Assembly: GCA_024743195.1 (NCBI GenBank)
Contig: JANSXE010000001.1
Span: forward strand, 62,001-126,000
Length of the DNA: 64,000 nt
DNA from: Alphaproteobacteria bacterium
Lineage (GTDB): Bacteria; Pseudomonadota; Alphaproteobacteria; UBA8366; Aestuariispiraceae
Direction of reading: 5' to 3'
Numbering within the stretch: position 1 is the first letter of the stretch; each line of letters begins with the position of its first letter. The position numbers and the translations under genes were made by a program. This document shows positions 3,031 to 18,887 of the stretch, piece by piece. The notes below the pieces were generated by a model that saw nothing but the letters and a program-made list of their open reading frames with translations, did no database searches and had not been told where the DNA came from.

Positions 3031-4353
3031 ATGACCCCTAAACTCCTGATCCCGCTCTATCTGGCCGTCCTGCTGGCCCCGCTCGCGCTGGCGGCGCTCG
3101 GCGGCAGACCGCCGCGCTCCGTCTGGGACGAGCTGGCGTCGGGTGCCGGCATGTTGGCCTTCACGATCCTGTTGGTGGAGTTCGTGCTGTCCGGGCGCTT
3201 CCGGACGGTGTCGGCGCGCATCGGCATGGACGTCACCATGCGCTTCCACCAGGTGATCGCGCGCACGGCGCTGGCGCTGGTGCTGCTGCATCCGATCCTC
3301 TACGCCGCGCCCTTCGCCGCGCCCTACCCATGGGACACGACGCGGGAGCTGACGCTCTATTCCGGCAGCCGCGGCCTCGCGACGGGGGTTCTGGCCTGGG
3401 TGCTGCTGATCGCGCTGGTCGTCTTCGGGATCGGCCGGCGGCAGCTTGCGCTGCGCTACGAAAGCTGGCGGCTGACGCACGGGCTCGGCGCGCTCGCGGT
3501 CGCGGGCCTGGCGCTCGACCACACGCTGATCGCCGGGCGCTACAGCCAGGATGCGGCGCTGGTCGCCTTGTGGAGCGGGCTCACCGCGGCGGCCGCCTTC
3601 TCGCTCGCCTGGGTCTATGCGATCAAACCGTTCCTGCAGACGCGGCGGCCCTGGCGCGTCGCGGGCGTCCGCAGGTTGGCGGAGCGCGCCTGGGAGCTTG
3701 CGATCGAGCCCGAAGGGCATGACGGCCTACGATTCGAGGCGGGGCAATTCGTCTGGCTCAATGTCGGGAGGAGCCCGTACTCCCTGTCCGAGAACCCCTT
3801 TTCGATCAGTTCGGCGCCGGCGGAGGGGCCGGGCCTGCGCTTCGTCATCAAGGAGCTCGGCGACTTCACGCGCACCGTGGGCGCCATAGCGCCCGGAACC
3901 CGCGCCCATCTGGACGGTCCGTTCGGGAGCCTCGTCGTCGCCGGCCGAAAGGAGCCCGGCGTCGCCCTGATCGCCGGCGGCGTCGGCGTCGCGCCGGCGC
4001 TGTCGATCCTGCGCCAACTGCGCGCCGAAGGCGACCCGCGGCCGATCCATCTGGTCTACGGCAACCGGACCGAGGCGCAGATCGTCTATCGCGCGGAACT
4101 GGACGCGATGGCCGCCGAGGCCCAATCGGTGCAGGTGACGCATGTCCTGGCCGAGCCGCCCGCGGGCTGGAGCGGCCGCACGGGCGTGGTCGACGCCGCG
4201 CTGATCCGCGCGCTCTTCGACGATCCGGCGCACACGGACTGGCTCTACATCATCTGCGGCCCGCCGGCGATGATCGAGGGCGCCGAACAGGCGCTGATCG
4301 ATCTCGGCGTCCCCTCGCGCCAGATCCTCTCGGAGCGCTTCCAATATGACTGA
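3031..4353 (+). CDS. ferric reductase-like flavocytochrome (FAD/NAD(P)H oxidoreductase)
   Basis: 440 aa. The N-terminal half has about six membrane segments (residues 5-200) with His residues suited to haem b (RFHQVIARTALALVLLHP, RLTHGLGALAVAG, ALDHTL). The C-terminal half is a ferredoxin-reductase module: FAD-binding NPFSISSAP, pyridine nucleotide-binding IAGGVGVAPALSILR and terminal CGPPAM. The family moves electrons from cytoplasmic NAD(P)H across the membrane to haem and an acceptor such as ferric iron. The acceptor here is unknown. The stop overlaps the start of a 35-aa membrane peptide at 4346, suggesting a paired product. Confidence 0.88.
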   Translation: MTPKLLIPLYLAVLLAPLALAALGGRPPRSVWDELASGAGMLAFTILLVEFVLSGRFRTVSARIGMDVTMRFHQVIARTALALVLLHPILYAAPFAAPYPWDTTRELTLYSGSRGLATGVLAWVLLIALVVFGIGRRQLALRYESWRLTHGLGALAVAGLALDHTLIAGRYSQDAALVALWSGLTAAAAFSLAWVYAIKPFLQTRRPWRVAGVRRLAERAWELAIEPEGHDGLRFEAGQFVWLNVGRSPYSLSENPFSISSAPAEGPGLRFVIKELGDFTRTVGAIAPGTRAHLDGPFGSLVVAGRKEPGVALIAGGVGVAPALSILRQLRAEGDPRPIHLVYGNRTEAQIVYRAELDAMAAEAQSVQVTHVLAEPPAGWSGRTGVVDAALIRALFDDPAHTDWLYIICGPPAMIEGAEQALIDLGVPSRQILSERFQYD

Positions 4354-4453
4354 CGGGCTCTCGAAACTGTCGAGCCGCCGGCGCCTGTCGCTCGGCCTCT
4401 GGACGATCAACGGCGCGATCCTGCTCGCCCTGCTGCTCTTCGCGCTGCGCTGA
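4346..4453 (+). CDS. 35-aa single-span membrane peptide coupled to the flavocytochrome
   Basis: The ATG at 4346 lies inside the last codons of the flavocytochrome (8-bp overlap), typical of translational coupling. The product has a basic head (KLSSRRR), a hydrophobic stretch WTINGAILLALLLFAL and a final Arg, so one transmembrane helix with N-in topology is expected. It ends 22 bp before a strong hairpin at 4475. No homolog is recognised. Conservation next to this reductase family would be the real test of coding status. Confidence 0.55.
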   Translation: MTDGLSKLSSRRRLSLGLWTINGAILLALLLFALR

Positions 4454-4474
4454 CGCCGGCGCCCAGACGACGAA

Positions 4475-4498
4475 CGGCCCGACCGGTGGGTCGGGCCG
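4475..4498. terminator. hairpin between convergent genes
   Basis: A perfect 10-bp stem (CGGCCCGACC / GGTCGGGCCG) with a GGTG loop lies between the convergent ends of the 35-aa peptide gene (4453) and the rhodanese gene (4547). There is no strong T-run on either side, so it is a likely but not certain bidirectional terminator. Confidence 0.65.
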
Positions 4499-4546
4499 CT
4501 GTGCAGGCTGTGGGGGCCGGCCTTGCCGACCAGCCCCGACGGTCGA

Positions 4547-4975
4547 TCAGTTGGTCATGACCGGCAGCGCGCGATCCTTCCACTCCGCCATACCGAGGGC
4601 GTAGTAGTAGATCTTGCTGTAGCCGAGGTCGCGGGCGATCTCTACCGCGTTGGCGGCGCGACCGCACTTGATGCCGTTGCAGTACATAAGAACGGCCGTG
4701 TCCTTGCTCGGAATGACGGCCGACAGGCTGTCCGCCGTGATCTCGGTGTCGATGAGACGGACGGCGCCTTCGATGTGGCCGGCGTTGAAGTCCGTCTCCT
4801 TGCGGTTGTCGAGCACGACCAGGTCGGGATGCTCGTCGAACAGGGCGATCACGCCGTCGGCGTCGACCGTCATGGCGCCGGCAATCTCCATGGGGGCGTC
4901 TTCGGCCACCGCCGGGGTGGCGAAGAAAGCCAGGGCCGCCAGGGCCATAACCGCGAACTTCGGGAACTTGATCAT
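4547..4975 (-). CDS. periplasmic rhodanese-like domain protein
   Basis: 142 aa with a signal peptide (basic MIKFPK, hydrophobic core, cleavage after TPAVA). The mature part is one rhodanese domain: LVVLDNRKETDFNAGHIEGA (CDC25-like substrate loop) and the active-site loop YCNGIKCGRAANA with the catalytic Cys. Rhodaneses carry a persulfide on this Cys for sulfur transfer. The periplasmic acceptor is not evident. The start is supported by GGAG about 8 nt upstream. It may be an isolated gene, as the chemoreceptor behind it starts separately. Confidence 0.85.
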   Translation of the reverse strand: MIKFPKFAVMALAALAFFATPAVAEDAPMEIAGAMTVDADGVIALFDEHPDLVVLDNRKETDFNAGHIEGAVRLIDTEITADSLSAVIPSKDTAVLMYCNGIKCGRAANAVEIARDLGYSKIYYYALGMAEWKDRALPVMTN

Positions 4976-5032
4976 CTCACGTCTCCATGTCTAAGGTGGT
5001 TTGGGTTTAACGTCATTACGTGTGCGAAGGCG

Positions 5033-6937
5033 CTAGGCGGCCTCCGTTTTGTCGGCCGCGCCGTTGTCCCGCCGGACAGAGGCAAGCACCGTCTTGATGC
5101 GGCCGAGCATCTCTTCAATCTGGTCGCCGATATCGGCGGTCGTGCCCGTGAACTCGTTGGCGATTCCGGCCACAGACTGGGTCTCTGTGGACGTTCCGAC
5201 CGCGGTGTCGTTCACGTCCTTGATGCCGTTCGAGGCTTCCTGGGCGTTCCGGGCGATCTCCTGGGTCGCAGCGGACTGCTGCTCCGCCGCCGCGGAAATG
5301 GCGGACACGATTTCGTTGATGTTCGCGATCTCGCCGCTGATCGTCCCGATGGCGTCCACGGTTTCGTCCGCCGCACCCTGGATGGCGCTGATCTGGCTGC
5401 CGATCTCCTCGGTCGCCCGAGAGGTCTCGTTCGCCAGGCTCTTGACCTCGGCTGCGACGACCGCGAAGCCCTTGCCGGCCTCTCCGGCGCGCGCCGCCTC
5501 GATCGTGGCGTTAAGCGCCAGCAGGTTTGTCTGCTCCGCGATGTCCTGGATCAGCGTGGCCACCTGGCCGATCTTCTGGACCGCATTGACCAGATTGCGA
5601 ACGGTGCCGCTGGTGGTGTCCGCGCTTTCGACCGCCTGGGCCGCGATGGTCGCGGATTCAGAGACGCGGTCGCCGATTTCGCGGCTTGAGACGGCCAGTT
5701 CCTCCGTCGCCGAGGCGACGGTCTGGATGTTGCGCGACGCTTCGCCCGCAGCGTCGCTGACGGACGAAATCATGCTGCTGATCCGCTGGACCGTCTCGTT
5801 CAAGGAGCCCGCATCGCCGCGCATGGCGCCGGTCCGCTCGGAGACGGAGCCGACCACGGTTTCCAGATCCTGCTCCAGCTGATCGCACAGCATCAGGATG
5901 CTCTGCCGCAGTTCATCCGCCTTCTCCTCCTCCAACCGGGCCTGACGGGCGGCGGCCTCCATGCGTTCGCGCTCTTCGACTTCGCGGGCCGCCTCCCGAT
6001 TCGCCTCGGCCTCGGCGTTCATTGCGGCCTCGCGCTTGCGGCTGCGGTGCATCGCGACGCTGACGACCACGACGCCTGCGGCGCCCACGGTCCCCGCCAC
6101 CGCGAGGAACAGAAGGAAAAACTCAATCCGGGTGTCCGCGAGCTGCGAGGCCAGATCCGTAACGTCCGCCTTGAGCTTCACGTCGAGAAGCGGTTCGCCG
6201 CTGCGCATCGTCACAGGGACCACGAAATCGTTCGTCGCGGCGTCCGGCTCGATCGTCACGTTCTCAAGCGCCTTAAGGTCCGGTCCGGCGTTTGGCTGGC
6301 GCAGCGTGACCGCCATGCCGATGCGCCCGTCCAGGGTGGTCAAGGCGTGCACGACATCAAGATGAGCGGCGACATAGCCGCGCAACCGCAAGCCGCCGAC
6401 CGGGGCGAACACTGAAAGGACCGGGCCGTCCGGCGTCGACCAGGCGATCGAGAGGCTCTCTAGACGCTCCGCCCCTTCCCGCTCCGTCACCCGGGCCATG
6501 TACTGCGCGGGCATCGCGCCGGCGTCGGCGCCCGGCGCCCACTGATCGCCCAACAACGTCCCATCGACGGCGTAGGCGGAGAGCCCGCGGAGGTTCACGC
6601 GCCCCTCGCTGACGAGCCCTTGGTTGAACTCGTCGCGAAACGCGTCCCCAATCGCGGCCGTGTCGGCGGACCGAATAGCGTTCGGCAACGCCTTGTTGCG
6701 GGAAACCGCCTGGGCCAACTCGATCCCCAGGGATTCATAGCGGTTCCAGAGCAGATCGTCGGTGGCGACCGCCACCAGCTCTTCCGCCTGCTCCTTCTGG
6801 AAATCCGCGATGAACGCCTCGTAGCGATCCGTCAAACGCCACCCGACCCAGGAGGCCGAGGCCAGAATCACGAAAACGGTCGCCGCCAGAAGCGCCGTGA
6901 CGGAGTGTTCGCGAATTTGGGCAATGAGCTTCGTCAT
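5033..6937 (-). CDS. methyl-accepting chemotaxis protein
   Basis: About 634 aa. One membrane helix near residues 10-30, a periplasmic sensor of about 230 residues, a second helix ([20 protein letters not shown]), a charged coiled-coil linker rich in E/R/A, then the receptor signalling domain with the hairpin tip [20 protein letters not shown]. The signalling tip contacts CheA/CheW. The start at 6937 is preferred to GTG 6952 because GAGGA lies in front of it. No che genes are in the window, so it works with a distant array. Ligand unknown. It is less GC-rich than its neighbours and has an AT-rich upstream region (6953-7114). Confidence 0.92.
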
Positions 6938-7114: not shown

Positions 7115-7900
7115 TCACGCCATGATGTGGCAGCCGCCGTCGATATGCAGGGTCTCGCCGGTGATGCGCCGGGCGGCGTCGCTGGCCAGGAAGGCGACGG
7201 CCGCGCCGACGTCGTCGATGTCGGCGAGGCTGTGCGCCGGCGCCCCGCGGCTGGCGCGCTCGATCAGCTCGTCGAAGCGCTCGATGCCCGAGGCGGCGCG
7301 CGTGCGCATCGGACCGGGCGAGACGGCGTGCACGCGAATGCCCTGCGGCCCCAACTCGTGCGCCATGTAGCGCGCCGCGCTCTCCAGCGCCGCCTTGACC
7401 GGGCCCATCAGATTGTAGTGCTCGACCACCTTCTCCGCGCCGTAATAGCTCATGGTGAAGAGCGCGCCGCCCTCGGTCATCAGCGGCTCTGCGTAGCGCG
7501 CCATGCGGATGAAGCTGTGGCAGCTCACATCCATCGCCAGCGCGAAGCCTTCGCGCGAGCAGTCGGTGACGCGCCCGTGCAGATCCTCGCGCGGGGCGAA
7601 GGCGATCGAATGCAGCACGAAGTCGAGCCGCCCCCAGCGCTCGCGAATGGCGTCGAAGAAGGCGCGCATCTCGCCCTGCGCGCGCACGTCGACGGGCAGG
7701 AAGATCTCCGCGCCGAGATCCTCGGCCAGCGGCTCGACATAGGGTCGCGCCTTCTCGTTCAGATAGGAAAGCGCGAGATCCGCTCCCGCGCGGCGGAAAG
7801 CCCGCGCGCAGCCATAGGCGATCGACTGGTCGTTGGCGACGCCGAGCACGGCGCCCTTCTTGCCCGCGAGGCTGAAGGCCGCCGGCGAAAACCCGTCCAT
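7115..7900 (-). CDS. fabI: enoyl-[acyl-carrier-protein] reductase (NADH), FabI type
   Basis: 261 aa, normal FabI length. It has the Rossmann motif GVANDQSIAYG, the YYGAEKVVEHYNLMGPVKAA segment with the catalytic Tyr and Lys, and the C-terminal GETLHIDGGCHIM. FabI reduces the enoyl-ACP double bond, the last step of each fatty-acid elongation cycle. The second of two close ATGs (7900) is chosen because GGAGGG sits 6 nt before it, whereas it directly abuts the first ATG (7906). An inverted repeat at 7938 lies in its upstream region. Alphaproteobacteria often carry more than one fabI, so this may be a secondary copy. Confidence 0.9.
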   Translation of the reverse strand: MDGFSPAAFSLAGKKGAVLGVANDQSIAYGCARAFRRAGADLALSYLNEKARPYVEPLAEDLGAEIFLPVDVRAQGEMRAFFDAIRERWGRLDFVLHSIAFAPREDLHGRVTDCSREGFALAMDVSCHSFIRMARYAEPLMTEGGALFTMSYYGAEKVVEHYNLMGPVKAALESAARYMAHELGPQGIRVHAVSPGPMRTRAASGIERFDELIERASRGAPAHSLADIDDVGAAVAFLASDAARRITGETLHIDGGCHIMA

Positions 7901-7937
7901 CCGCATCCCTCCGCGTCAGAGTCTGCGTCTTCCGCAT

Positions 7938-7956
7938 CGCACAAAAATCTTGTGCG
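7938..7956. promoter_or_regulatory. inverted repeat upstream of fabI
   Basis: CGCACAA-AAATC-TTGTGCG, a perfect 7-bp inverted repeat with a 5-nt spacer, centred about 47 bp before the fabI start. It could be a regulator site or an RNA hairpin in the leader. Which one cannot be told from sequence. Confidence 0.35.
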
Positions 7957-8417
7957 GTGCAACACAATAACCGAACGCGAAGGCGCCGTCACCGGTTCGA
8001 CAATGACGGTTTCGTTGCAGCGCGACGCGGCGGGCGCGCGCCGTTTGACGCGATGCGGGGGGAGAAAGAAAGCGACGCCCCATCCCGGAGGGAGGTCGAA
8101 CGAGATCCGGGGCGGCATTTCCAGCTTCGGAAAAATGGCGCCCGCGCCCACCCGCAGGAAGTATATCGCATGTGATTGCAAATGGGCTGGTCCTCTCAAC
8201 GAGGAATGGTGTCGTAGAGGAGCCGTGGCAGGGCATTTCTACTGGGAGCAATTGAAGAATGATTTTGTATACATCCGTCGAATAGAGCGACGCACGCCAA
8301 TTTGACGCCGCAAACACTTATTTTGCACGCTTTTGGATCAGTTCCGATCCATCCGGCGTCCGGCGGAAAATGCGCACTCATAGCCACAAGCGGACCGTCG
8401 TCAACGTCGCAAGCGCC
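7957..8417. other. gene-free stretch between fabI and the hydrolase gene
   Basis: No convincing gene is seen on either strand; the open frames here are short and of arginine-rich shadow composition. The stretch becomes AT-richer toward 8160-8340 and contains the palindrome TGTATACA (8266-8273), which resembles FadR/VanR-type GntR operators although no such regulator is adjacent. It marks the step from GC-rich core sequence to the less GC-rich cluster at 8.4-18.9 kb. Confidence 0.6.
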
Positions 8418-9335
8418 TCAGGGTGCGTTCAACCAAGCAGCAATTTCGGTGAAGACCTCGCGCACGGCCGCTACGCTCGCTGCATAGCTAAGGAAGCCGT
8501 GGGGCAGCGCCGGCGCGTGATCAAGCCTGATGGACTGACCGTTGGCCGCCATCCTCTCGGCGAGATAAACGCTGTCGTCGCGCAGAGGATCCAGGCCAGC
8601 GGCCAGGACGAGCGTTCGAGGTAAAGAGACGTCCGTCACCCGTTGGATCAGGTTGCGGTGGCGATAGGTCGAGGGAGGCGCTGCGAAATACGCCGCCCAA
8701 TAGCGCTTGAGCGCGTGATCTGACAAGCCGTACGCACCGCCGCCGAACAGCCGATGGCTCTCAGCTGCGCACTCGTAAACGAAGTTTCCGTAGAGCAGAA
8801 TCAGCGCTTCGGCCCAAGTTGCAATGCATCTGTCATTAAGCGCAAGTTCGAGCACCAACGACGCCCCGGCCGAATCCCCCGCAAGACACGGCCGGGCTTC
8901 TTTCGCAGTTTTTGGAACAGGCAACGGTCCGCGCAGCGTTGCCTGTATAGTCCTCAACGCCGTCGGATAAGGGTGCTCCGGGGCCAGCGGATAGTCTAAA
9001 GCGAGCAGCCATCGCCCGCTGGCCAAGGCCAAGCGACGGCAAATTGTGTCATGGCTGTCCAGGCTGCCGACACACCCTCCCCCGCCATGAAGGTAGATGA
9101 TCAGGCCGTGCGCGGCCGCGCCGCCGTATAGCCTGGCCGCCATGTCGCCAACACGAAGGTTCTCGACCCAAGCCAAAGCAGGCGGATCGGGCTCAAGGAT
9201 CGCCCTTTCGCGATCTAGGAGGGTTCGGGCGTCTTGGAAGGAAACGCCATAGCGATCAGGCCACCCTCGGGTCAAATCGGAAAGACGATTGCGGGCGGCC
9301 GCAAACTCAGAATCAAGCTCTGCTCTAGGCGACAT
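8418..9335 (-). CDS. alpha/beta hydrolase, hormone-sensitive-lipase type
   Basis: 305 aa. Oxyanion-hole motif YLHGGGGCVG (family HGGG), nucleophile elbow GDSAGAS, acid in AGLDPLRDD and catalytic His in LPHGF: a full Ser-Asp-His triad of the HSL/acetyl-hydrolase family, acting on esters or related bonds of small molecules. The ATG at 9335 overlaps the previous hydrolase by 11 bp, so the two are translated together. It is the last gene of the GntR-diiron-Liv cluster, which suggests it processes the imported compound or its oxidation product. Confidence 0.85.
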   Translation of the reverse strand: MSPRAELDSEFAAARNRLSDLTRGWPDRYGVSFQDARTLLDRERAILEPDPPALAWVENLRVGDMAARLYGGAAAHGLIIYLHGGGGCVGSLDSHDTICRRLALASGRWLLALDYPLAPEHPYPTALRTIQATLRGPLPVPKTAKEARPCLAGDSAGASLVLELALNDRCIATWAEALILLYGNFVYECAAESHRLFGGGAYGLSDHALKRYWAAYFAAPPSTYRHRNLIQRVTDVSLPRTLVLAAGLDPLRDDSVYLAERMAANGQSIRLDHAPALPHGFLSYAASVAAVREVFTEIAAWLNAP

Positions 9336-10158
9336 TGCCGGGGCGTAAGACGGCCAGCGCCGCTTTGAACAGGGGATCTGCCGGATCGGCCAGGCTATCC
9401 AGGATCGTGAAGTGATTACGATCGGCGACTTCCATCTCGTGCACAGAGACCCCTGCGGCGCGGAGGCGATGGGCGAAATCCAAGGTCTGACGTTTGAACC
9501 CGAGCGTTTCCCGCCCGCCCGTGGCCAGCAACACGGCCGCGTCGCCCAAGGTCTTGGGCCAAGGGCGTCGCGCCGGGCTGAACGCGAAGGCCTCCATTGC
9601 ATCTAGATCGAGCTCGACATTCACATTGGTCTGCAAGAGCGGCAAAAGATCATACAATCCGCTCAAGCCGATAAGACCTGCTGGCGGCGCGCCGTCCTGC
9701 GCCACGGCCAAAGCCCCCCAAGCCGCGAGATGGGCGCCGGCCGAATGGCCCGCTATCACCAAAGGTGTGTTCGGCCGTTCGCGGCGTAACGCCCGGCAGG
9801 CCGCTTGGGCGTGATCGACAATGCCGGAGAGCGGGAACTCGGGGGCCAACCCATAGTTCGCTAAGCTCACCTCCACGCCGGCTTCAAGGAAGGGCCGAGC
9901 CAGAAACACGCAGTGATCTTTGTCCAACGTCCGCCAATAGCCGCCGTGGAAGAACACCAAGTGAGCCGTCGCGTCCGGGCGCTCGAAAAGCTCGATGCGG
10001 TTCAATGAGTGGGGGCCATAGCAAATCTCGCGCGAGGGTGTGCGCGCTTTCACAGTCCGCCCCCGGGCCAGATGGCCTTTGTAGACCTCCATGCGCTCCG
10101 GATGGCGAAGACGCATATTGAACTGTGCCTCGAAATGCGGGTTGGACACCTCAGACAC
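9325..10158 (-). CDS. alpha/beta hydrolase resembling kynurenine formamidase
   Basis: 277 aa. FFHGGYWRTLDKD near residue 70 matches the HGGYW oxyanion motif of the alpha/beta-fold arylformamidases, with nucleophile elbow GHSAGAHLAAW and a C-terminal His in DRNHFTILD. Such enzymes cleave N-formyl or related amide/ester bonds; the true substrate is not known here. GTG start 10158 overlaps the LivF stop by 8 bp, and its own stop overlaps the next hydrolase by 11 bp. The context indicates work on a compound brought in by the Liv-type transporter. Confidence 0.82.
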   Translation of the reverse strand: MSEVSNPHFEAQFNMRLRHPERMEVYKGHLARGRTVKARTPSREICYGPHSLNRIELFERPDATAHLVFFHGGYWRTLDKDHCVFLARPFLEAGVEVSLANYGLAPEFPLSGIVDHAQAACRALRRERPNTPLVIAGHSAGAHLAAWGALAVAQDGAPPAGLIGLSGLYDLLPLLQTNVNVELDLDAMEAFAFSPARRPWPKTLGDAAVLLATGGRETLGFKRQTLDFAHRLRAAGVSVHEMEVADRNHFTILDSLADPADPLFKAALAVLRPGNVA

Positions 10159-10864
10159 CCAGATAGGTCTCCCGGACAGTCGGATCGTGCTTCAAGTCGG
10201 CGGCCGAGCCGGATCGCGCGATCCGGCCCTCGGCCAGCACATAGGCGCGCTCCGCGATCTTCAAGGCGGCGCTGGCGTTCTGTTCGGCCAGAAGCACAGT
10301 GGCGCCGGCCTGGTTCAAGTCCGCGATCGTACGAAAGATATCCTTGACCACCAGCGGCGCTAGGCCCATCGAGGGCTCGTCGAGCAGGAGCAGGCTCGGT
10401 CGCGCCATCAGGGCGCGACCAATCGCCAGCATCTGCTGCTCACCGCCCGACAGCGTGCCAGCCGGCTGCTCCAGACGTTCTTCCAAACGTGGAAAGAGAT
10501 TCAGTACGAATTCTCGATCTCGTGCGACCTCGTCGCGCTCGCCGCGTTTCAAGCGCTGATAGGCTCCCATCTCGAGATTCTCTGCGACGCTCATCGGCGC
10601 AAAAACCCGTCGGCCTTCCGGCACGAGAGCGCAGCCTGCCGCTACGATGCGATCCGGCGTGGCGGCCTCAACGCGCACGCCGTTGAGCAAGATCTCCCCG
10701 CGCAGCGGGCGAAGAAGCCCCACGATCGCGCGCATGGTCGAACTCTTCCCCGCGCCGTTGGCGCCGATCAGGCAGACGATTTCGCCGGCGCGCACCGATA
10801 GATCGAGCGCATGCAGCACATCGCCTTGATCATAGCCTGCGCAAAGCGCCTTCACCTCAAGCAT
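10151..10864 (-). CDS. livF: branched-chain amino acid-type ABC transporter ATPase LivF
   Basis: 237 aa. Walker A GANGAGKSS, signature LSGGEQQMLAIGRALM, Walker B LLLLDEPSMGLAP and the LivF-typical ALVPEGRRVFAPMSV. It energises the LivHM permease together with LivG. The ATG at 10864 (MLEVKALCAGY) overlaps the LivG stop by 8 bp; the longer upstream frame is LivG shadow. The divergent partner genes suggest a substrate other than a branched-chain amino acid. Confidence 0.93.
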   Translation of the reverse strand: MLEVKALCAGYDQGDVLHALDLSVRAGEIVCLIGANGAGKSSTMRAIVGLLRPLRGEILLNGVRVEAATPDRIVAAGCALVPEGRRVFAPMSVAENLEMGAYQRLKRGERDEVARDREFVLNLFPRLEERLEQPAGTLSGGEQQMLAIGRALMARPSLLLLDEPSMGLAPLVVKDIFRTIADLNQAGATVLLAEQNASAALKIAERAYVLAEGRIARSGSAADLKHDPTVRETYLGV

Positions 10865-11630
10865 CGTCGTCGTCTCGGCCAAGATAAGCTTCCAGCACCG
10901 CCGGATCCTGTTGTACTTCCGCTGGTGTGCCTTCAGCGATCGGACGCCCATGGTTCAGCACCAGAATGGAATGAGCCAGAGCCATGACCATGCGCATATT
11001 GTGTTCAACCAGGACTACCGTGATCCCCTGGGCGTTGACTTTGCGGATGGTCTCAGCGACCCGCCCGATTTCGTCCTGGGGCAATCCGGCGATGGGCTCG
11101 TCGAGCATCAGAAGCGAAGGCTCGCTTAACAGCGCTCGGGCGATTTCCAGGACCTTGCACTCTCCAAAGCTCAAATCTCCCGCCTTGTGGTAGGCGCGTT
11201 CAGCGAGTCCCAGGCGGTCGAGTTGATCGTACGCCAGCGCTTCGAGGCGCGCTTCCTCTCGTGCGATACCGGGAAGCCGCAGCATGCTAGCGAGAAAACC
11301 TCCCGTACTGGCCACATGCGCGCCCACCATCGCGTTCTCTAAGACCGTGAGTTCCTTGAAGATTTGCAGGTTCTGAAAAGTACGCACCATGCCCGCAGCG
11401 ACACGGCGATCGACGGGAATAGCGTCGATCCGCCCATCGCGGTAGAACACATCCCCACTACTCGGCGGGGTGACTCCGCTCAAGACGTTGAACAGTGTGG
11501 TTTTACCGGCGCCATTGGGGCCGATGATGGCCTTGATCTCACCTTCCTTGAGGACGAAGGACACGTCCCGCAGCGCCTCCAGACCGCCGAATCGGCGCGA
11601 CAGGCCGCGCACTTCCATAAGGGGGCTCAT
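10857..11630 (-). CDS. livG: branched-chain amino acid-type ABC transporter ATPase LivG
   Basis: 257 aa. Walker A GPNGAGKTT, the LivG marker VRTFQNLQIFKELTVLEN, signature LSFGECKVLEIARALL and Walker B LMLDEPIAGL. It pairs with LivF to power import. Start and stop overlap livM (4 bp) and livF (8 bp), so the four transporter genes are translationally linked. Confidence 0.93.
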   Translation of the reverse strand: MSPLMEVRGLSRRFGGLEALRDVSFVLKEGEIKAIIGPNGAGKTTLFNVLSGVTPPSSGDVFYRDGRIDAIPVDRRVAAGMVRTFQNLQIFKELTVLENAMVGAHVASTGGFLASMLRLPGIAREEARLEALAYDQLDRLGLAERAYHKAGDLSFGECKVLEIARALLSEPSLLMLDEPIAGLPQDEIGRVAETIRKVNAQGITVVLVEHNMRMVMALAHSILVLNHGRPIAEGTPAEVQQDPAVLEAYLGRDDDDA

Positions 11631-12634
11631 CGCGCTCGCTCTCGCCGGCGGAGAGCGCCGCCCGCGCGCTCAAAGAGGCTGACAAGGCCGCTGGGAAAGA
11701 AAAGCATGACCAAGATCATGATCAGGCCGAACATGAACAACTCCATGTCCTCCAAGGTCCGAAAGACCTCTGGCGCGGCGACATAGATCGCCGCCCCGAT
11801 GAATGCGCCCCAATAGCGGCCCCAACCGCCCAGCGCGACCATCACCACCAAGAGAACCGAGATGAAGAAACTAAAGGTTTCAGGGGACGCGAAGTTGTTC
11901 TTGTGAACGTAAAGCGAGCCTGCGACACCCGCAAAGCCGGCGGAAATCGCAAAGACGACCACCTTGTAGGCGGTCACGTTGATCCCGAGGCACGCCGCAC
12001 CGATTTCATTGCCCGCCAGGCTGCGCAGCGCCCGACCAGGGCGTGACTGGATCAAGTTGAGAATCGCCAGCATCACCAAGCCGGCAATAGTCCAGGCGAA
12101 GTAGAAAAACGCCGTCTCATTGGCGAGCGAAACGCCGAAAAGGGTGAACCCTGGGACCCCGATGAGGCCGTTTGGGCCGCCGGTGAGGAACACCAATTCG
12201 TTGAAAAGGACCGTCATGATAGCGTTCAGGCCGAGGGTGGCCATGGCGAGATAATGCCCCTTCAAGCGCAACGCCGGTACGCCGACGAGCGTCGCCACCA
12301 CGGCGCAGACCAAGAAGGCGCTTGGAAGGCCGATCCATGGACTGACGTCGGCTTTCACCGCCAGGACGCCGCTTGTGTAGGCGCCGAGCCCAAAAAAGGC
12401 GCCATGCGCCAGGGATATTTGCCCCGCGAACCCCATAAGCAGGTTCAAGCTGGCGATCAGGATAAGGTAGATCCCAAAGAAAGAACCCAGCGCGAGGATG
12501 TAATTGTTGGGCGCAATCGCCGGCCAGACCAGGAAACCAAGCCAGATCGCGGCGAGGAGCATGAGCGAACGGCGCCGTTCGCGTTTCAATGCGGACCGAT
12601 CTTGCACGCTCGCGTGCTTCACAGGCGCGTTCAT
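11627..12634 (-). CDS. livM: branched-chain amino acid-type ABC transporter permease LivM
   Basis: 335 aa with a basic N-terminal tail (about residues 1-22, KRERRRS), then eight or more hydrophobic segments. Family motifs include NLLMGFAGQISLAHGAFFGLGAY and the cytoplasmic loop RALRSLAGNEIGAACLGIN, which contacts the ATPases. It forms the channel with LivH. A 4-bp ATGA overlap joins it to livH. The long basic tail lies before the first membrane segment. Confidence 0.92.
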   Translation of the reverse strand: MNAPVKHASVQDRSALKRERRRSLMLLAAIWLGFLVWPAIAPNNYILALGSFFGIYLILIASLNLLMGFAGQISLAHGAFFGLGAYTSGVLAVKADVSPWIGLPSAFLVCAVVATLVGVPALRLKGHYLAMATLGLNAIMTVLFNELVFLTGGPNGLIGVPGFTLFGVSLANETAFFYFAWTIAGLVMLAILNLIQSRPGRALRSLAGNEIGAACLGINVTAYKVVVFAISAGFAGVAGSLYVHKNNFASPETFSFFISVLLVVMVALGGWGRYWGAFIGAAIYVAAPEVFRTLEDMELFMFGLIMILVMLFFPSGLVSLFERAGGALRRRERAR

Positions 12635-13515
12635 ACCTTTTCGATTTCCTTGTGGCCGAACAGGCCGGTCGGGCGAAAGAACAGGATGCCCAAAAGGACC
12701 ATAAAGGCTACGGCGTCCTTGAACTGGCTGGATATGTAGCCGCCCGCCAGCGATTCCAAAATGCCCAGCAAGAGCCCTCCGACCATCGCCCCATAGAGGT
12801 TTCCGACCCCTCCCAACATCGCGGCGCTGAAGCCTTTGAAACCCAGCACCGTGCCGTGATCGTAGGAGGTGAAGGTCAAGGGTGTGATGATCGCCCCGGC
12901 CACGCCCCCCGCCAGAGCCGCGATCGCGAAGGCCATCATGGTTGCGTGGCGCACTCTGACGCCCATCAAGACGGCGACCTCTCGGTCGGCGGCCGCCGCC
13001 CGCATCGCTTTACCGGTCAGTGTCCGCTCGAAGAAGAAATGTACGGCCAACATGAACAAAGCGGCGACGACAATGATCCACACGGTCTGTGGATGAAGAC
13101 TTGCGCCGGCGATCATTATCGGAGTCTCGCCGGAGAAACCTGGATAGCCGGCAGGGTTCTTCCCCAGGGTCAACATCACACCGCTCTTGGTAACGATAGC
13201 GAGCCCGATGGTGACCAAAGTCAGGGTGACCGGCGAAGGATTCCGCAACGGTTCTATCACGAAACGTTCGGACAGTACGCCCAACACGCCGATGCAGAGC
13301 ACGGCGGCTGCGCAGGCCACCCAGATGGGAGAGTCAAAGGAGACGAAGAAGAACGCCGAAAGCATGCCGCCAATCATCACCCATTCGCCTTGGGTGAAAT
13401 TGATGGCCCCGGTGCTCTTAAAGATCACATTGAAGCCGACGGCGATGATGCCGTAAATGCTGCCGGTACTGACGCCGGCGAACAACAGTTGCAGCAGTTG
13501 CGTCTGCGGATCCAT
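12631..13515 (-). CDS. livH: branched-chain amino acid-type ABC transporter permease LivH
   Basis: 294 aa, close to the usual LivH length, with about eight hydrophobic segments. Typical segments are GVSTGSIYGIIAVGFNVIF and FTQGEWVMIGGMLSAFF at the N-terminus and the ATPase-contact loop GKAMRAAAADREVAVLMGV. It starts 27 nt after the second diiron gene in the direction of transcription. Together with LivM, LivG, LivF and the binding protein at 15464 it completes a HAAT-family importer. Confidence 0.92.
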   Translation of the reverse strand: MDPQTQLLQLLFAGVSTGSIYGIIAVGFNVIFKSTGAINFTQGEWVMIGGMLSAFFFVSFDSPIWVACAAAVLCIGVLGVLSERFVIEPLRNPSPVTLTLVTIGLAIVTKSGVMLTLGKNPAGYPGFSGETPIMIAGASLHPQTVWIIVVAALFMLAVHFFFERTLTGKAMRAAAADREVAVLMGVRVRHATMMAFAIAALAGGVAGAIITPLTFTSYDHGTVLGFKGFSAAMLGGVGNLYGAMVGGLLLGILESLAGGYISSQFKDAVAFMVLLGILFFRPTGLFGHKEIEKV

Positions 13516-13542: not shown

Positions 13543-14451
13543 CTATAGCGACGGGCGCGTGGGCGCCGCGACGCCCAACTCGGCGAAACGCTCCCAGGAC
13601 CGATCGAGGTAGCCGTTCACGATCTCGCGCTCCCGCTCGGCCGCGCAAGCGCCCAGTCCGGCGGCGGCGACGATGCGGTCCGCTTCGGCTTCCTTCGCCG
13701 CGGCCGGATTGGCCCACGGGCAGTGATAGCCCGCCTGCTCGACGGTTTCGATGTGCCGAACCAGCGCCGCGCCGATATCGGCCTTCAGCGCCGAATCCCA
13801 GCTCGGCGCGCGTTCTTCTAGATAAAGCCACCCGAATGCGGCGTGGCGCGTCTTGGCGGCCACAACCATCTCTAGGACGCGCTTCACAACGGGGTCCGCC
13901 GCGTTTTCGAGATAGCCCTGGTAGAGCGCCAGATCGATTCCCCCCTCCAGCGCGCAATGCACGGCGACATAGCCATCCAAGGGCGTGCCCGCGTCCAGGG
14001 CCTCGCGGGCCTGCGTACGGTTGAAGGCGGCCGCGTAAACTGGGTCGGCCGGCTGTTCGACCCTACCGCCGAACGCTTCCGCCAGCCGGTCGAAGCATTC
14101 GATATGCCAGGCCTCCTCCGTGTTGCGAACGGTTAGAAAGTACTTCGGGTCGGCCTCACGCCCCGGCTCCAAGCAGAAGCGGATCAAAAGGGCGGGGGTC
14201 TCGCTAAGTCCCGTGTATTCAACCCACAGGCGTCGGCTCCATGTCAGGCGTGCAGCGTCGCGCGTCGCCTTGTCGTGCCGTGCGGGATCAAGATCCGCCC
14301 AAGGAACATCGCCGGCTGGGTTCCAACACTGACGCTTGCCTTGCTCATACAGCTCGCGGATCGAGAGGATCGACCGGGAGAGGGACAGCGGAAAGCGCTT
14401 CTCGATCAGGATCCGGGTCGCTCCCGAAGCGGCGGTATCGGCAGTCGTCAT
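13543..14451 (-). CDS. ferritin-like diiron family protein with an altered metal site
   Basis: 302 aa, a clear paralog of the gene just upstream (14456). Conserved: the WNP..DVPW N-terminal motif, Glu78, the first ExxH (Glu113/His116 in TEEAWH), and Glu169. Where the paralog has the second ExxH (Glu200-VRH), this protein has Lys200-TRH, so one carboxylate ligand of the diiron centre is replaced by Lys while the His remains. It may be a non-catalytic or modified partner of the upstream protein, forming a heteromer; this is inference. ATG 14451 lies 4 nt after the upstream stop. No close characterised relative is recognised. Confidence 0.8.
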   Translation of the reverse strand: MTTADTAASGATRILIEKRFPLSLSRSILSIRELYEQGKRQCWNPAGDVPWADLDPARHDKATRDAARLTWSRRLWVEYTGLSETPALLIRFCLEPGREADPKYFLTVRNTEEAWHIECFDRLAEAFGGRVEQPADPVYAAAFNRTQAREALDAGTPLDGYVAVHCALEGGIDLALYQGYLENAADPVVKRVLEMVVAAKTRHAAFGWLYLEERAPSWDSALKADIGAALVRHIETVEQAGYHCPWANPAAAKEAEADRIVAAAGLGACAAEREREIVNGYLDRSWERFAELGVAAPTRPSL

Positions 14452-14455
14452 GATC

Positions 14456-15388
14456 TTAGAACTCTCCGATCTTGGGATGGTGGAACAGAGGCAACTCAAT
14501 TCCCCAAGGGCGCATTTGCCTGCGAATGCGCTTCACCGACTCCACGAAGATCGGCTTCTCCAGTTCCTCGACGGTGGCCCCAAGGCCGGCTTCCCAAGTG
14601 TGGCGGTCGCACTCGATCTCGAAGCGTGCGCCCGGCGAGTCGGGCGCCAACCAAGATGAATGGTAGCCGTTGCATTCAACCTTCTCGATCATCGTCACCA
14701 CCGCGTCTCGGATCACCTCGAGCTCGGCGGGGCTCATCTCTTTGGTGCGCTGGTTCATGAACTGCCAGCCGAACGCGCAATGCCGCACCTCGTCGCGCAT
14801 GATTGCCTGACAAACCTGGCGAGCGACCGGATTGGGCGTGATCTCGATGAGATGCTTGAAGACGTCGAAAGCGATCTCCTCGGCCGCGCAGACCAAGGCG
14901 GCGATGATCGCTTCGAGAGACACATCCGGGTCGAGCGCCATCTTGCGCACCCCATGGGTCGCGACCGAGCCCTCGTAGCCCTGGGCTTCGGGTTTCTCGA
15001 TATACCCGCCGAGCTTTTCCGCGATCAGATAGCAAACTTCCGCGTGGCGGGATTCCTCTTGCGATCGGATGGTGAAGAACAGGCGCATGTCGGCCGGGTA
15101 GTCCTGCAGGCAATATCGGATCTGTAGCGCCGGACTTTCGGAAATGGCGCCGTATTCGCCCCAAGCGCGCCGACTCCAATAGTGGCGCGCGCCCCAAAGC
15201 TGCGCCTCCGAAAACTGCGCCGGATCCAGAAGATCCCAATCGATATCGGTCTGTGGGTCCCACTGGTTCTTGGTGGCCGCAGCGAACAGGTCACGGACGC
15301 GCGGTAGCTTCGGAGCCATAGACAGGGGGAAGCGCTGTTCTGGCCCATCCAGAATCGTCGGCTCCGCGACGGTGGCGTGCGCGTTCAT
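14456..15388 (-). CDS. ferritin-like diiron oxygenase-family protein
   Basis: 310 aa, mostly helical. A complete carboxylate-bridged diiron ligand set can be proposed: Glu78 (WGEYGA), Glu112/His115 (QEESRHAE), Glu170 or 171 (CAAEEIAF) and Glu200/His203 (RDEVRHCAFGW). The N-terminal NQWDPQTDIDWDLL resembles ferritin-like oxygenases. It probably activates O2 to oxidise an organic substrate; the substrate is unknown. It is separated from the binding-protein gene by a strong hairpin and followed at 4 nt by a paralog lacking one ligand. Its place beside a dedicated importer and two hydrolases points to catabolism. Confidence 0.82.
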   Translation of the reverse strand: MNAHATVAEPTILDGPEQRFPLSMAPKLPRVRDLFAAATKNQWDPQTDIDWDLLDPAQFSEAQLWGARHYWSRRAWGEYGAISESPALQIRYCLQDYPADMRLFFTIRSQEESRHAEVCYLIAEKLGGYIEKPEAQGYEGSVATHGVRKMALDPDVSLEAIIAALVCAAEEIAFDVFKHLIEITPNPVARQVCQAIMRDEVRHCAFGWQFMNQRTKEMSPAELEVIRDAVVTMIEKVECNGYHSSWLAPDSPGARFEIECDRHTWEAGLGATVEELEKPIFVESVKRIRRQMRPWGIELPLFHHPKIGEF

Positions 15389-15426
15389 GGCGATTCACTC
15401 CTCATTCACGGTTCGAAGGAAAAGGA

Positions 15427-15455
15427 GGGGGCGACGGCAGGCGGCCGTCGCCCCC
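15427..15455 (-). terminator. strong hairpin after the binding-protein gene
   Basis: A perfect 12-bp stem (GGGGGCGACGGC / GCCGTCGCCCCC, loop AGGCG) begins about 9 nt after the binding-protein stop and is followed on the minus strand by CTCCTTTTCC. It is probably a partial terminator that lets the binding protein be made in excess of the downstream enzymes and permease, a common arrangement in ABC operons. Confidence 0.75.
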
Positions 15456-15463
15456 CCGCGTCT

Positions 15464-16627
15464 TCACTTGTAGTCGGCGAGGTGAAAACGACCGTCCTTC
15501 CAATTGACCAGCACGAGATCTTCTTTCGACAGACCAGAATGGCGCTTTTCGGAGAACGTGAACGTGCCGCCGACGCCGCCCCAGCCCTGAACGGCGGGTA
15601 TGGCTGCGCGCACAGCCTCCGCGTCATCGCCGCCGGCCTCCAGCGCCTTGGCCGCCAGATGGATCGCATCATAGGTCTGGGCGGCGAACTGGCTCGGCGC
15701 ACGGCCGAACTTCTCCTGAAACTTTTGCTGCAAAGACAGGATCTGCTCGCGCGTGGGGTCGTCGGCGGGCAACTGATCTCCCACCGGAAACTTGACGCTA
15801 ACCAACAGAAGCTTGGAGGCTGCGTCGCCCGCCAGCTCCATATAGCGCTGGCTGACGAAGCCGTAGCTATGGACCAGCGTCAGATCGTCCATGCCGAGCT
15901 GTTGGGCCTGCTTCAGAAACACAACGCCGGCTGGGGTAACGGTCCAGCAAATGATCGCCTGGGCGCCCGAGCTCTTGATCCGGGTCAGTTGCCCGGTCAT
16001 GTCGGTATCGGCCGGGTTGAACGCTTCGTAGACCACGTCCAGACCGCGCTCAGGGCCAACCTTCTCCATCTGCTCCACCGCACTTTGCCCGAAGCCGGAC
16101 GTGTCGGACAGCAACGCGACCTTCGTTATGCCCTGCTTCTCGAAGTAATCGGCCAGGCGATGGATAACCTGATCGTCGTCAACCGTGCTCTTGAAGGTCC
16201 AGCGACGCTCCTCCACCGGATTGACGATCTTCATGGAGCCTTCCGTGGAAATGAACGGAAGCCCTGCGCTTTCGGTCAGCGGCACCATCGCCAGCGCAAT
16301 TCCGCTCATATTGCCGCCTCCAACGAGGATATCGACCTCGTCTTGGGAGATCAGACGGCGCGTGGCGGTGATTCCCTTGGCGGTCTGGCTTTCCGCGTCG
16401 TAGAAGACCCACTCAACCGGGCGCCCGCCGATTCCGCCCGCCTCATTGATCTCATCGAGTGCGATCTCCATTCCAGCTTTCATATCTTCGCCCAGAAAGG
16501 CGGCGGGGCCGGTCACGGAGAGGATTGAACCGATCTTGAGTGGCTCGGCGGCCTGCGCCGGGGCGGCAAGCCCAAGGGCCATGACCGCCGCCGCAGCCCA
16601 GCGATTTATCGTGAACTTCGTTCGCAT
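15464..16627 (-). CDS. periplasmic binding protein of the Liv/HAAT ABC family
   Basis: 387 aa. Signal peptide to about residue 27 (cleavage after APAQA), then a type I periplasmic-binding fold: LKIGSILSVTGPAAFLGEDM, ALDEINEAGGIGGRPVEWVF, the ligand-region GGGNMSGIALAM and LLSDTSGFGQSA. It captures the substrate for LivHMGF. Residues around the pocket do not let me name it; members bind amino acids, amides, urea or aromatic acids. It lies directly after the GntR regulator and before the hairpin at 15427. Confidence 0.9.
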   Translation of the reverse strand: MRTKFTINRWAAAAVMALGLAAPAQAAEPLKIGSILSVTGPAAFLGEDMKAGMEIALDEINEAGGIGGRPVEWVFYDAESQTAKGITATRRLISQDEVDILVGGGNMSGIALAMVPLTESAGLPFISTEGSMKIVNPVEERRWTFKSTVDDDQVIHRLADYFEKQGITKVALLSDTSGFGQSAVEQMEKVGPERGLDVVYEAFNPADTDMTGQLTRIKSSGAQAIICWTVTPAGVVFLKQAQQLGMDDLTLVHSYGFVSQRYMELAGDAASKLLLVSVKFPVGDQLPADDPTREQILSLQQKFQEKFGRAPSQFAAQTYDAIHLAAKALEAGGDDAEAVRAAIPAVQGWGGVGGTFTFSEKRHSGLSKEDLVLVNWKDGRFHLADYK

Positions 16628-16690: not shown

Positions 16691-17578
16691 CTAGTCAATC
16701 TCGTTTGCCGGCTCCGTCCTTGGGGTTGTAGGCCGCGCGCGAAGAGAGAGAGAAAGACCCGGCTTCGCCTCGACAGCCGAGTCTCCGCCGAGGTCGGGCC
16801 TGTCGGACTGACGGCCCAACGGGACGCGCATTGAGTACCGGACCTGGTCAGCGCGATACGTAGACCATCCGACCAAGACGTATTGTCCGCGCGTATCGCG
16901 GTAGCGCAGCCAGCGCACCAACACCGCGTCGCCTTCCATGATCTCCAACTTCTCGGCGACGCTCGGGTCGGCCAAGGCCGATTCAATCTCGATCTCCCCG
17001 TGATCGAGGTCGGTCTGGCGCTTCAACAGATCGAGCAGCGAAACCCGCGCGGCGGCCTCGCGGGAGAAGCCGTCGGCCAGCCAAGCGGGGATGTAACGAT
17101 GGTCGATCGACACCGGAATCCCCGCGCTTAGCCGAACACGTTTGATGTACAAAACCTCTTCGCCCGCGGGCACGCCGAAGGCGGCGGCGACCTCGCGATC
17201 AGCCCCGCAGCGTTCGAAACGGTCGATCTCCAGCGAAAGGGGCCGGCCGCTTTGCGCCCACTGGTCGATGAAGTCCATGCGCGGCGTAAACTGCTCAGAG
17301 ACCTTCTGTACGGAGACGAACGTCCCCAGCCCTTGCACTCGGCGCAAATGCCCTTCCCGCACCAACTCCTGCACAGCTTGACGGACGGTGTGGCGGCTTA
17401 GCCCGTACTGGCGAACCAAATCGTCGTCTGTGGGGAACCGCCGTTCCGGATCGGACCAGGAAAGGATGGCGCTCATCAGCCGGCGCTTGAGCTGAACATA
17501 CAGCGGCAACGGCGAGGCCCGATCGATAGTCGGCCAATCAGAAAACTCCTGCGGCTTCGGCGACGGCCAATGCGCCAT
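16691..17578 (-). CDS. GntR family regulator with UTRA effector domain (HutC type)
   Basis: 295 aa. Winged helix about residues 24-92 (PLYVQLKRRLMSAILS, FPTDDDLVRQYGLSRHTVRQ, GLGTFV), then a UTRA domain about 105-255 (VLYIKRVRLSAGIPVSIDHRYIP). UTRA domains bind small metabolites and release the repressor. It heads the cluster and is divergent from the unknown gene at 17715. The intergenic stretch holds repeated GTACGGTAAA boxes that may be its operator. The C-terminal 40 residues are basic and look disordered. Confidence 0.9.
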   Translation of the reverse strand: MAHWPSPKPQEFSDWPTIDRASPLPLYVQLKRRLMSAILSWSDPERRFPTDDDLVRQYGLSRHTVRQAVQELVREGHLRRVQGLGTFVSVQKVSEQFTPRMDFIDQWAQSGRPLSLEIDRFERCGADREVAAAFGVPAGEEVLYIKRVRLSAGIPVSIDHRYIPAWLADGFSREAAARVSLLDLLKRQTDLDHGEIEIESALADPSVAEKLEIMEGDAVLVRWLRYRDTRGQYVLVGWSTYRADQVRYSMRVPLGRQSDRPDLGGDSAVEAKPGLSLSLRARPTTPRTEPANEID

Positions 17579-17640
17579 TTCATCTTCCCAATCGAGCAGG
17601 CCCGCTCAAAGCACGGGCCGGGTTGCGCAATTGCTAGATA

Positions 17641-17672
17641 GTACGGTAAAACGCTTGTACGGTAAACCATAC
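17641..17672. promoter_or_regulatory. candidate operator of the GntR/UTRA regulator
   Basis: GTACGGTAAA occurs twice, at 17641 and 17657, 16 bp apart. The second copy is part of a near-palindrome, GTACGGTAAACCATAC (17657-17672), whose halves differ at one position. It lies between the divergent GntR gene and the unknown gene at 17715. Spacing and symmetry suit a GntR-family dimer, but no consensus was tested. Confidence 0.45.
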
Positions 17673-17714
17673 TTTTTCAAATATGACGGTTTTCTGAGAA
17701 AGTGGGCAAGATAC

Positions 17715-18887
17715 ATGCGCTGTGCGAGCGTCGGGTTTCATGGATCAGTCGCAGGAGTCGAGACGCTGGACTATTCCGCGCCTCAAGAGCTCGACCGCTA
17801 CGACGCGATCTTCTGGCATACGGACGCGCCGTTCGACGCGTTCGCCGGTGATATAGAAAGGCCCGGCGCCCTGCCCGTCCTGTCCTCACGCGGGTCGCAG
17901 CGTTTGCTCGCGTGCGCCCGCATTTGGCGCGCGGAGCTGCGCGCCGCGCTCAACATGGGCAAGGCGGTATGCCTGTTGGTGGGCCCCGAACGGCAGCTTG
18001 CCTATCACACCTTCGAAGACATCATGGTGGTGGACCGGATGGATCCGCTCGCCGACATGTGCCGGATCGCAACAGAACCCGCCTCCGGCGTCGCCAGAAT
18101 GGTTTCTGGCGAGCCGTTCGCCCGAGCGCTCACCTCCGCGCTCGAACTGGGACAGGTTCACACCAGCCTATCCGGCGGTTTTGGAACGCCGCTCGCCAAG
18201 GCGGGAGACGGCGTGATCGCGTCCTATTCATACAGTGCGCTTGGGCATCTGTTGCTGTTGCCCGCCGCCACAGCGCGCACGCCGCTTCCCTCACAGGGCC
18301 TGTTGGCGCTCATCGAGCTGATGGAAACGCTTATGCAAGGCGGGGATTGGATCGGCTTCGAACCGTGGGCGCGCGATTATCGCCTTCCCTTGGAGGCGTC
18401 CATAGCCGAAGACATCGACGCCGCGCGGGCCGAGTTGAAACGCGCGGCGGACGCGGTGAGCGAACTTGAAGAGCGCGCATCCACATTGCGACGCCGACGC
18501 GCGCTCGTGGGCGCGACCGGTCGTTCGCTTACGCGGGGCCTTGAGAAGGCCTATGGCGAGTTGGGCGTCTTAACTCTAGGCCACACCTGCGGCCCAGATG
18601 TTCTCGTGCTGGAGGAACAAGAGGGATTTCGCCTCGCCCTGATAGTAGACGACCCCGACTGCGAACCCAAGGCCGTGCTAGAACGCTTCCGAGAGGTCAA
18701 CGCCCAATTCGAGGCGGAGTTCATGGCCACCGCCCAGGCGACCCTTATCGACGCGCGCGCCAATCGCTTGGGTCCGGCGGCCTCGGTCGTCCCCCCGCCC
18801 CTGCACCCGCCCATAGAAGGCGGCGAGGTTCTGACACCCAAGGACATTTTGGACCGCCTTCCAGCTGTTGCGCTTTGGTCCTCGTAA
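17715..18887 (+). CDS. uncharacterised protein with coiled coil and nuclease-fold-like C-terminus
   Basis: About 390 aa, not recognised. The frame is open from a TTG at 17631, but that start lies before or within the putative operator, so ATG 17715 is preferred. The N-terminal 220 residues contain alternating hydrophobic strands (AIFWHTDAPFDAF, KAVCLLVGPE) and an SYSYSALGHLLLLP segment. Residues about 232-262 form a charged coiled coil. It is followed by GATGRSLTRGLEKAYGELG and GPDVLVLEEQEGFRLALIVD, an order I associate with restriction-endonuclease-like domains, but the usual E-x-K is absent (LALIV). Possible role: a DNA-associated or sensor protein; unproven. It is divergent from the GntR regulator. 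Confidence 0.7.
   Translation: MRCASVGFHGSVAGVETLDYSAPQELDRYDAIFWHTDAPFDAFAGDIERPGALPVLSSRGSQRLLACARIWRAELRAALNMGKAVCLLVGPERQLAYHTFEDIMVVDRMDPLADMCRIATEPASGVARMVSGEPFARALTSALELGQVHTSLSGGFGTPLAKAGDGVIASYSYSALGHLLLLPAATARTPLPSQGLLALIELMETLMQGGDWIGFEPWARDYRLPLEASIAEDIDAARAELKRAADAVSELEERASTLRRRRALVGATGRSLTRGLEKAYGELGVLTLGHTCGPDVLVLEEQEGFRLALIVDDPDCEPKAVLERFREVNAQFEAEFMATAQATLIDARANRLGPAASVVPPPLHPPIEGGEVLTPKDILDRLPAVALWSS

Follow-up and report, generated by a model that had tools for sequence, protein, structure and literature searches.

To our knowledge, pairs made up of a diiron enzyme and a ligand-deficient sister protein are few. R2lox, which has an R2-like fold, a Tyr-Val ether crosslink and a bound fatty acid, is not known to us as a two-gene pair; the AurF family, active in the N-oxygenation of arylamines, has an extra His ligand four residues ahead of the ExxH Glu; and the fold of AibH1H2 differs from the R2 fold. 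AibH1H2 is a catabolic hydroxylase with a mononuclear site in one subunit and a dinuclear site in the other (PMC10401708), PaaC is regarded as a structural subunit accompanying PaaA, paralogous to it and of one fold with it (PMC4498308), and Rnr4, with three iron ligands changed, stabilises the active site of Rnr2 (PMC2704937). Class Ie R2 has three Glu replaced (PMC11846895) and forms a DOPA (PMC11846895; PMC8463856); Arg211, Asp212 and Lys213 are named for it, with a modelled salt bridge between Lys213 and Asp88 (PMC8902622).

The locus compared here with these systems consists of two genes on the minus strand of the window (the whole stretch of 64 kb of DNA that was analysed), the products of which are referred to as window A and window B. 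Gene A (14456–15388, minus strand, starting with ATG at 15388; 310 aa) encodes an R2/R2lox/AurF-like diiron protein with the full ligand set, as judged from sequence, Pfam, structural model and alignment, and gene B (13543–14451, minus strand, starting with ATG at 14451; 302 aa) encodes a paralogue of A in which two of the ligand columns are occupied by Lys200 and Gly170, as judged from BLASTP, model and alignment; the program-made ORF list placed the start of B at an upstream TTG instead of the ATG. The TAA of A is separated from the ATG of B by four bases (GATC), and the two proteins are 34% identical over 285 columns (BLASTP, E 1e-47), so the location of both ORFs, the 4-nt gap and the paralogy claimed in the initial annotation were all borne out: A and B are genuine, adjacent, paralogous genes.

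In combining a full-site, putatively catalytic diiron subunit with a paralogue of degenerate ligand set and, by prediction, the same fold, the pair resembles PaaA/PaaC, which serve catabolism (PMC4498308). However, neither A nor B gave a PaaA_PaaC Pfam match at E ≤ 1, no PaaB-like or PaaE-like gene, as present in the PaaA/PaaC operon, was recognised among the scanned genes of the cluster, and the identity within the pair is 34% for A and B, as against 17% for PaaA and PaaC. Yeast Rnr2/Rnr4 likewise are duplicated R2-type subunits, Rnr4 being incapable of holding a diiron site and needed to activate Rnr2 (PMC2704937), but they belong to a eukaryotic ribonucleotide reductase, whereas A/B are encoded in a bacterial operon with a transporter and hydrolases, and no ribonucleotide reductase large subunit was recognised in the A/B cluster.

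The pair is rare. A contig scan of genomes with A alone as the query found no relative, and the same scan with a two-row A alignment yielded ten loci, seven of which (L017 to L023) carry both genes: three come from Azospirillum species and one from Acuticoccus mangrovi, both genera of the Alphaproteobacteria, and three from alphaproteobacterial MAGs, the remaining three being distant actinobacterial singletons. A complete pair was found by tblastn against plasmid records on the megaplasmid of Paraburkholderia sp. PREW-6R (A 60% and B 45.5% identical), and one more, L058, with both genes open, in a B-profile search of 11 genomes from the family of genome G107. This brought the total, window included, to ten clusters, which encode 11 A but 10 B because locus L021 has A twice (3409–6244 of that locus, two A copies followed by one B). 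The spacing between A and B ranges from -1 to 14 nt in all ten clusters, with the start codons as chosen by the analyst. With at most five candidates scored per genome, the A profile found matches in 2 of 385 genomes of the class at E ≤ 1e-30 and in 7 of 398 genomes of the phylum at E ≤ 1e-8; among these seven, only the window's genome has the pair. No Lys-bearing B without A was found in the sets searched, and the unpaired matches of the B searches were singletons with Glu at column 200. Elsewhere in the window's own genome (31 contigs), a different contig carries a further distant relative (E 4.9e-20), and a single weak match, partial in extent, was seen at E 0.012. Two Variovorax plasmids (L012, 8001–10005, and L013) carry distant singletons, about 23% identical to A, beside genes for a 2Fe-2S reductase, a CoA ligase and a thiolase, perhaps belonging to an unnamed CoA-dependent aromatic pathway.

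AlphaFold2 models of A and B, built from 16-row alignments, had mean pLDDT values of 84.0 and 89.6, respectively, and both proteins are predicted to be R2/R2lox-like bundles. The closest solved fold among the matches listed was R2lox for either model (A: 7qbp, Z 22.3, rmsd 3.4, 259 aligned; B: 3ee4, Z 21.6, rmsd 3.3, 259 aligned), with R2, class Ie R2 and VlmB within about three Z units of it. The identity of R2lox to A/B is only about 15%, and its six-ligand dimetal set is found in A with another helix spacing (third-to-fourth ligand spacing of 30 in the A/B family, 35 in R2lox) and is absent from B. A combined A/B profile matched R2lox 7qbk at E 2.3e-6, which adds little because a designed helix bundle ranked above it (4.9e-9) and Crov588 close below (8.6e-5); a PDB sequence search with B alone gave one weak match (E 0.52). 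Among the Pfam families, window A passed the cut-off of AurF (PF11583) narrowly (31.9 bits, cut-off 29.6), the A protein of L058 fell just under it (27.4 bits), and all ten A of alignment A6 matched AurF at E ≤ 0.01, but the column of the extra His ligand of AurF (196) is occupied by Ile or Val in all 11 A. None of the ten B had a Pfam match (nine at E ≤ 0.01, that of L058 at E ≤ 0.001), and NCBIfam gave nothing above a cut-off for window A or B. The azoxy synthase VlmB shares the R2-like fold (Z 21.3, rmsd 2.9, 253 aligned with A; Z 20.4, rmsd 3.1, 256 aligned with B), but is only 12–16% identical and, unlike A/B, has no paralogous partner described in the available text of the source (PMC11705231).

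The ligand columns were counted in a joint alignment of the 11 A and 10 B with 13 singleton relatives, from which O_L003 had been removed as the same gene as L028 and for which L017 and G107, alike in length and match, were taken as one contig and counted once. The full set claimed for window A is present: Glu78, Glu112/His115, Glu170 and Glu171, and Glu200/His203; all 11 A have the six-ligand dimetal set (Glu78, Glu112, His115, Glu170, Glu200, His203). Glu170 is preferred over Glu171 as the third ligand because the singletons keep Glu at 170 (Glu in 11/11 A and 13/13 singletons) and have Gln, Val or Gly at 171; Glu171, which lies at the same distance from Glu200 as the third ligand of aldehyde-deformylating oxygenase from the fourth, was rejected. 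Position 171 in B is Gly in nine of ten, with Glu in locus L011.

At residue 200, window B has Lys within AKTRH (codon AAG, 13852–13854, minus strand) and window A has Glu within DEVRH (codon GAG, 14789–14791, minus strand), at the same residue number as had been noted initially; the column is anchored by the RH directly after it and, in A and B, also by FGW. An alignment of homologues had been preset in the initial annotation as a refutation test for Lys200, and the Lys survived it, being present in all ten B, with Glu in all 24 A and singletons (11/11 and 13/13). The Lys-bearing B proteins come from alphaproteobacteria and from the Paraburkholderia megaplasmid, and the B protein of L058, found after the claim had rested on the other nine, also has Lys200. 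Invariance by itself is weak evidence, B having 59 invariant columns in the alignment and A 114. Only seven columns (85, 105, 114, 159, 165, 176 and 200) are fixed in both A and B with different residues, and column 200 is the only one among them that is invariant across A and the singletons together; on the aligned sequences, the striking point is the fixed charge reversal at a ligand universal in A and the singletons.

The third-helix Glu of column 170 is replaced as well, by Asp in eight of ten B, by Gly in window B (codon 13942–13944, minus strand, numbered from the ATG at 14451) and by Ala in Paraburkholderia; the nearest Glu of window B is Glu169, one position off. The second-helix pair of window B is Glu113/His116, equivalent to Glu112/His115 of A, and the His116 column has His in 8/10 B (Gln in L011, Ala in L022), with Glu78, Glu113 and His203 retained in 10/10. 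Of the six columns of the old metal site, four are thus retained in 8 to 10 of the ten B, and two of the ligands that remain vary more in this alignment than Lys200 does. The initial statement that B keeps the equivalents of all ligands but one is therefore wrong for window B, which has Gly170 besides Lys200; the second-helix pair has the numbers 113 and 116 in B, and His116 is absent from two of the ten B.

A strain-specific mutation was rejected on the presence of Lys200 in all ten B orthologues. More broadly, it is extremely improbable that Lys200 is a chance mutation or that B is a decaying copy in this strain: the Gly of window B at the third-helix column, where eight of ten B have Asp, would fit such decay, but the Lys is common to the ten B, the eight orthologues in alignment A7 are only 46–56% identical to window B, the frames are open, and dN/dS is about 0.1 between close relatives. 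In a maximum-likelihood tree of 29 rows with nine B and ten A (without L058, L059 and L064–L066), B forms one side of a branch with a support of 98/96, A likewise with 91/98, and the branch that separates A plus B from the singletons is supported at 83/87. With a root among the singletons, the duplication would be older than all nine clusters in this tree, and the Lys would have a single origin.

The dN/dS ratios were calculated for eight of the ten clusters (L021 and L058 left out), in 7 chosen pairs of the 28 possible. They were 0.087 for B and 0.071 for A between L018 and L019, and 0.107 and 0.046, respectively, between L017 and L023; the ratio was higher in B than in A in all seven chosen pairs, several of which had high synonymous divergence. 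Judged by these ratios, B is under purifying selection and less tightly held than A. The faster divergence of B, together with its lack of a Pfam match, would suit separate enzymes of one pathway that form no complex, with B perhaps a non-redox enzyme or a binding protein, and sister genes of a catabolic operon can indeed act in sequence. This appears quite doubtful, however, given the tight A-B spacing in every cluster, the lack of a Lys-bearing B without A in the sets searched and the retention of four of the six old metal-site columns in most or all B.

The gene neighbourhood was counted by tblastn across eight loci (L011 and L017–L023). The cluster, on the minus strand, begins with a GntR/UTRA-type regulator (16691–17578; HutC-like, under the NCBIfam cut-off), a homologue of which is present at all eight loci. 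It is followed by a Liv-type (Peripla_BP_6) substrate-binding protein (15464–16627) and, beyond A and B, by a LivH-type permease (BPD_transp_2; 12631–13515), a LivM-type permease (BPD_transp_2; 11627–12634), a LivG-type ATPase (ABC_tran, BCA_ABC_TP_C; 10857–11630) and a LivF-type ATPase (ABC_tran; 10151–10864, start inferred at an internal ATG of a longer ORF), the assignment of the two permeases to H and M and of the two ATPases to G and F being our assumption. These Pfam-assigned genes are each present at 7/8 loci, the exception being L021, where neither the binding protein nor any of the four Liv-type transport genes was detected. The best solved relatives of the binding protein carry only generic names as ligand-binding receptors and therefore point to no particular ligand. 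Next comes an alpha/beta hydrolase (Abhydrolase_3; 9325–10158, minus strand; 6/8 loci), the best solved relatives of which are esterases or lipases (E 6.9e-24), with the more distant kynurenine formamidase fifth (E 1.2e-10), and then a second alpha/beta hydrolase (8418–9344, minus strand, start inferred) with a homologue at one of the eight loci (L022). RidA-family genes lie downstream in L011 and L018 and, from ORF reading, in L019, and an amidase lies downstream in L011 and L058 (NCBIfam scores under the curated cut-offs). Enzymes of C-N bonds next to a transporter of the amino-acid/amide type suggest that the compound broken down is nitrogenous.

Pfam and NCBIfam revealed no recognisable electron-transfer reductase in the cluster, taken as the ten genes that start with GntR and end with the second hydrolase; a reductase-free cluster is unusual for a multicomponent monooxygenase. 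A FabI-type enoyl-ACP reductase is encoded downstream of the cluster (7906–7115), and a gene for a ferric-reductase-like membrane flavoprotein lies on the other strand (3031–4353, plus) about 4 kb beyond it. A terminator-like hairpin of 14 pairs with a T-rich tail is located at 15425–15457 (minus strand) between the binding-protein gene and A, and may, by prediction, leave A, B and the permeases less strongly expressed than the binding protein; the region has 7 terminator-like sites versus a mean of 4.2 in shuffles, and a sigma-70 promoter scan, with 0 sites, was uninformative. Between B and LivH, locus L017 has a creatininase-like ORF, apparently cut short (11895–13160), and locus L023 has ORFs resembling transposase genes on visual inspection (7591–8369). 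A divergent ORF without Pfam match (window 17631–18887, plus strand) has 25–27% identical homologues beside the cluster in L011, L017 and L023 (3/8) and may belong to the A/B system, judging by this placement. TauD-type dioxygenase genes were seen in the window at 1740–2822 (minus strand) and beside the cluster in L021 (8232–9305).

By spacing from the class Ib ligands, Lys213 of class Ie R2 is taken here to stand at the position of the ExxH Glu, and Asp88 at that of the first-helix ligand. The Lys at the fourth-helix (D)ExxH Glu, found in 10/10 B, is as in class Ie R2 (NrdF VPK/QSK; PMC11846895; PMC8902622). B also differs from A at further positions: Trp115 and His165 are fixed in B, with Arg and Leu, respectively, in A; Tyr161 is present in 9/10 B (Ile in A, Thr in one); position 169 is Glu or Asp in 9/10 B (Ala in A, Ser in one); and position 173 is Asp or Glu in 10/10 B (Ala in A). 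Positions 161, 165, 169 and 173 form a B-specific polar stripe on the third-ligand helix (window 13933–13971), mostly hydrophobic in A. These features would fit a redox protein with a rebuilt site, either single-metal (Glu78, Glu113, His116/His203) or metal-free as in class Ie, in which Lys200 would serve oxidant or proton handling and B would act in series with A. The B model also aligns with class Ie R2, at Z about 19–20, no better than with other R2 proteins. Such a redox role is rather unlikely: the position of the DOPA tyrosine of class Ie R2 (four residues after the His, position 120 in B) is not conserved (F, Y, C, F, F, F, C, F, C, C across the ten B), class Ie replaces three Glu (PMC11846895) and B, with columns 170 and 200 changed, keeps Glu113 in all ten, no NrdI or NrdE (R1) gene was recognised among the cluster genes (Pfam; NCBIfam for seven proteins), and B, unlike class Ie R2, has a full-site sister gene. 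A class Ie-like DOPA radical in B was rejected for lack of a conserved Tyr; the radical cofactor suggested in the initial annotation, taken as class Ie-like, lacks this Tyr at the expected place. The one-iron site is weakened because His116 is not kept in two of ten B and the third Glu has become Asp, Gly or Ala. It is unlikely that B holds a new kind of R2-fold site, metal-free or single-metal, in which Lys200, the polar stripe (Tyr161, His165, Glu169, Asp173) and Trp115 replace the dimetal centre and take part in the reaction; if it did, the site might, for example, bind a substrate carboxylate or serve A's metal site in the handling of protons or superoxide.

The best explanation is that A and B are probably subunits of one oxygenase or oxidase, A being the active dimetal subunit and B a ligand-deficient partner without a dimetal centre. 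The conserved adjacency, the single B lineage and the purifying selection fit the catalytic subunit and modified partner proposed initially, for which PaaA/PaaC and Rnr2/Rnr4 are precedents, the complex itself being a matter of inference, as are metal occupancy, salt bridge, reaction and substrate, on folds that are predicted. A would perform the chemistry at a normal dimetal site with carboxylate bridges, either diiron or, in the manner of R2lox, Mn/Fe, and B would be the duplicated copy, the site of which no longer forms a dimetal centre. Lys200 would replace the bridging Glu of B and probably form a salt bridge with Glu78/Glu113, so holding the fold without metal; a pairing with Glu78 would follow the likeness to Lys213-Asp88 of class Ie. 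B would then stabilise, position or regulate A, and such a non-metal structural or regulatory role is favoured because B keeps the second-helix Glu and lacks the conserved class Ie Tyr. The operon would import a small organic compound, probably nitrogen-containing, via the Liv-type transporter, A/B would oxidise it, and the hydrolases, with RidA or amidase in some relatives, would complete the breakdown. Against this explanation stand the residues Glu78, Glu113 and His203 in all B and His116 in most, which fit a mononuclear site, the fixed Trp115 and His165, which could represent a rebuilt active site, the two A to one B in L021, and the cluster without a recognised reductase.

No publication naming the A/B pair was found among the literature listed for paired or pseudoenzyme diiron proteins and such operons. 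Neither the fold nor the concept of pairing with an inactive subunit is new. Within the literature, Pfam and NCBIfam searched, what appears new is the family, together with the operon and a Glu-to-Lys swap that is fixed in proteins other than ribonucleotide reductase. An apparently undescribed family joins the diiron enzymes that have a ligand-deficient sister, and the ExxH Glu-to-Lys swap of the metal-free ribonucleotide reductase recurs, within the same fold, in what seems to be a separate lineage. The operon is marked out as an uncharacterised one, catabolic by appearance, and the small, adjacent A and B genes in named strains of Azospirillum and Paraburkholderia offer a clean system for asking why a Lys, as opposed to random loss, replaces a metal site.
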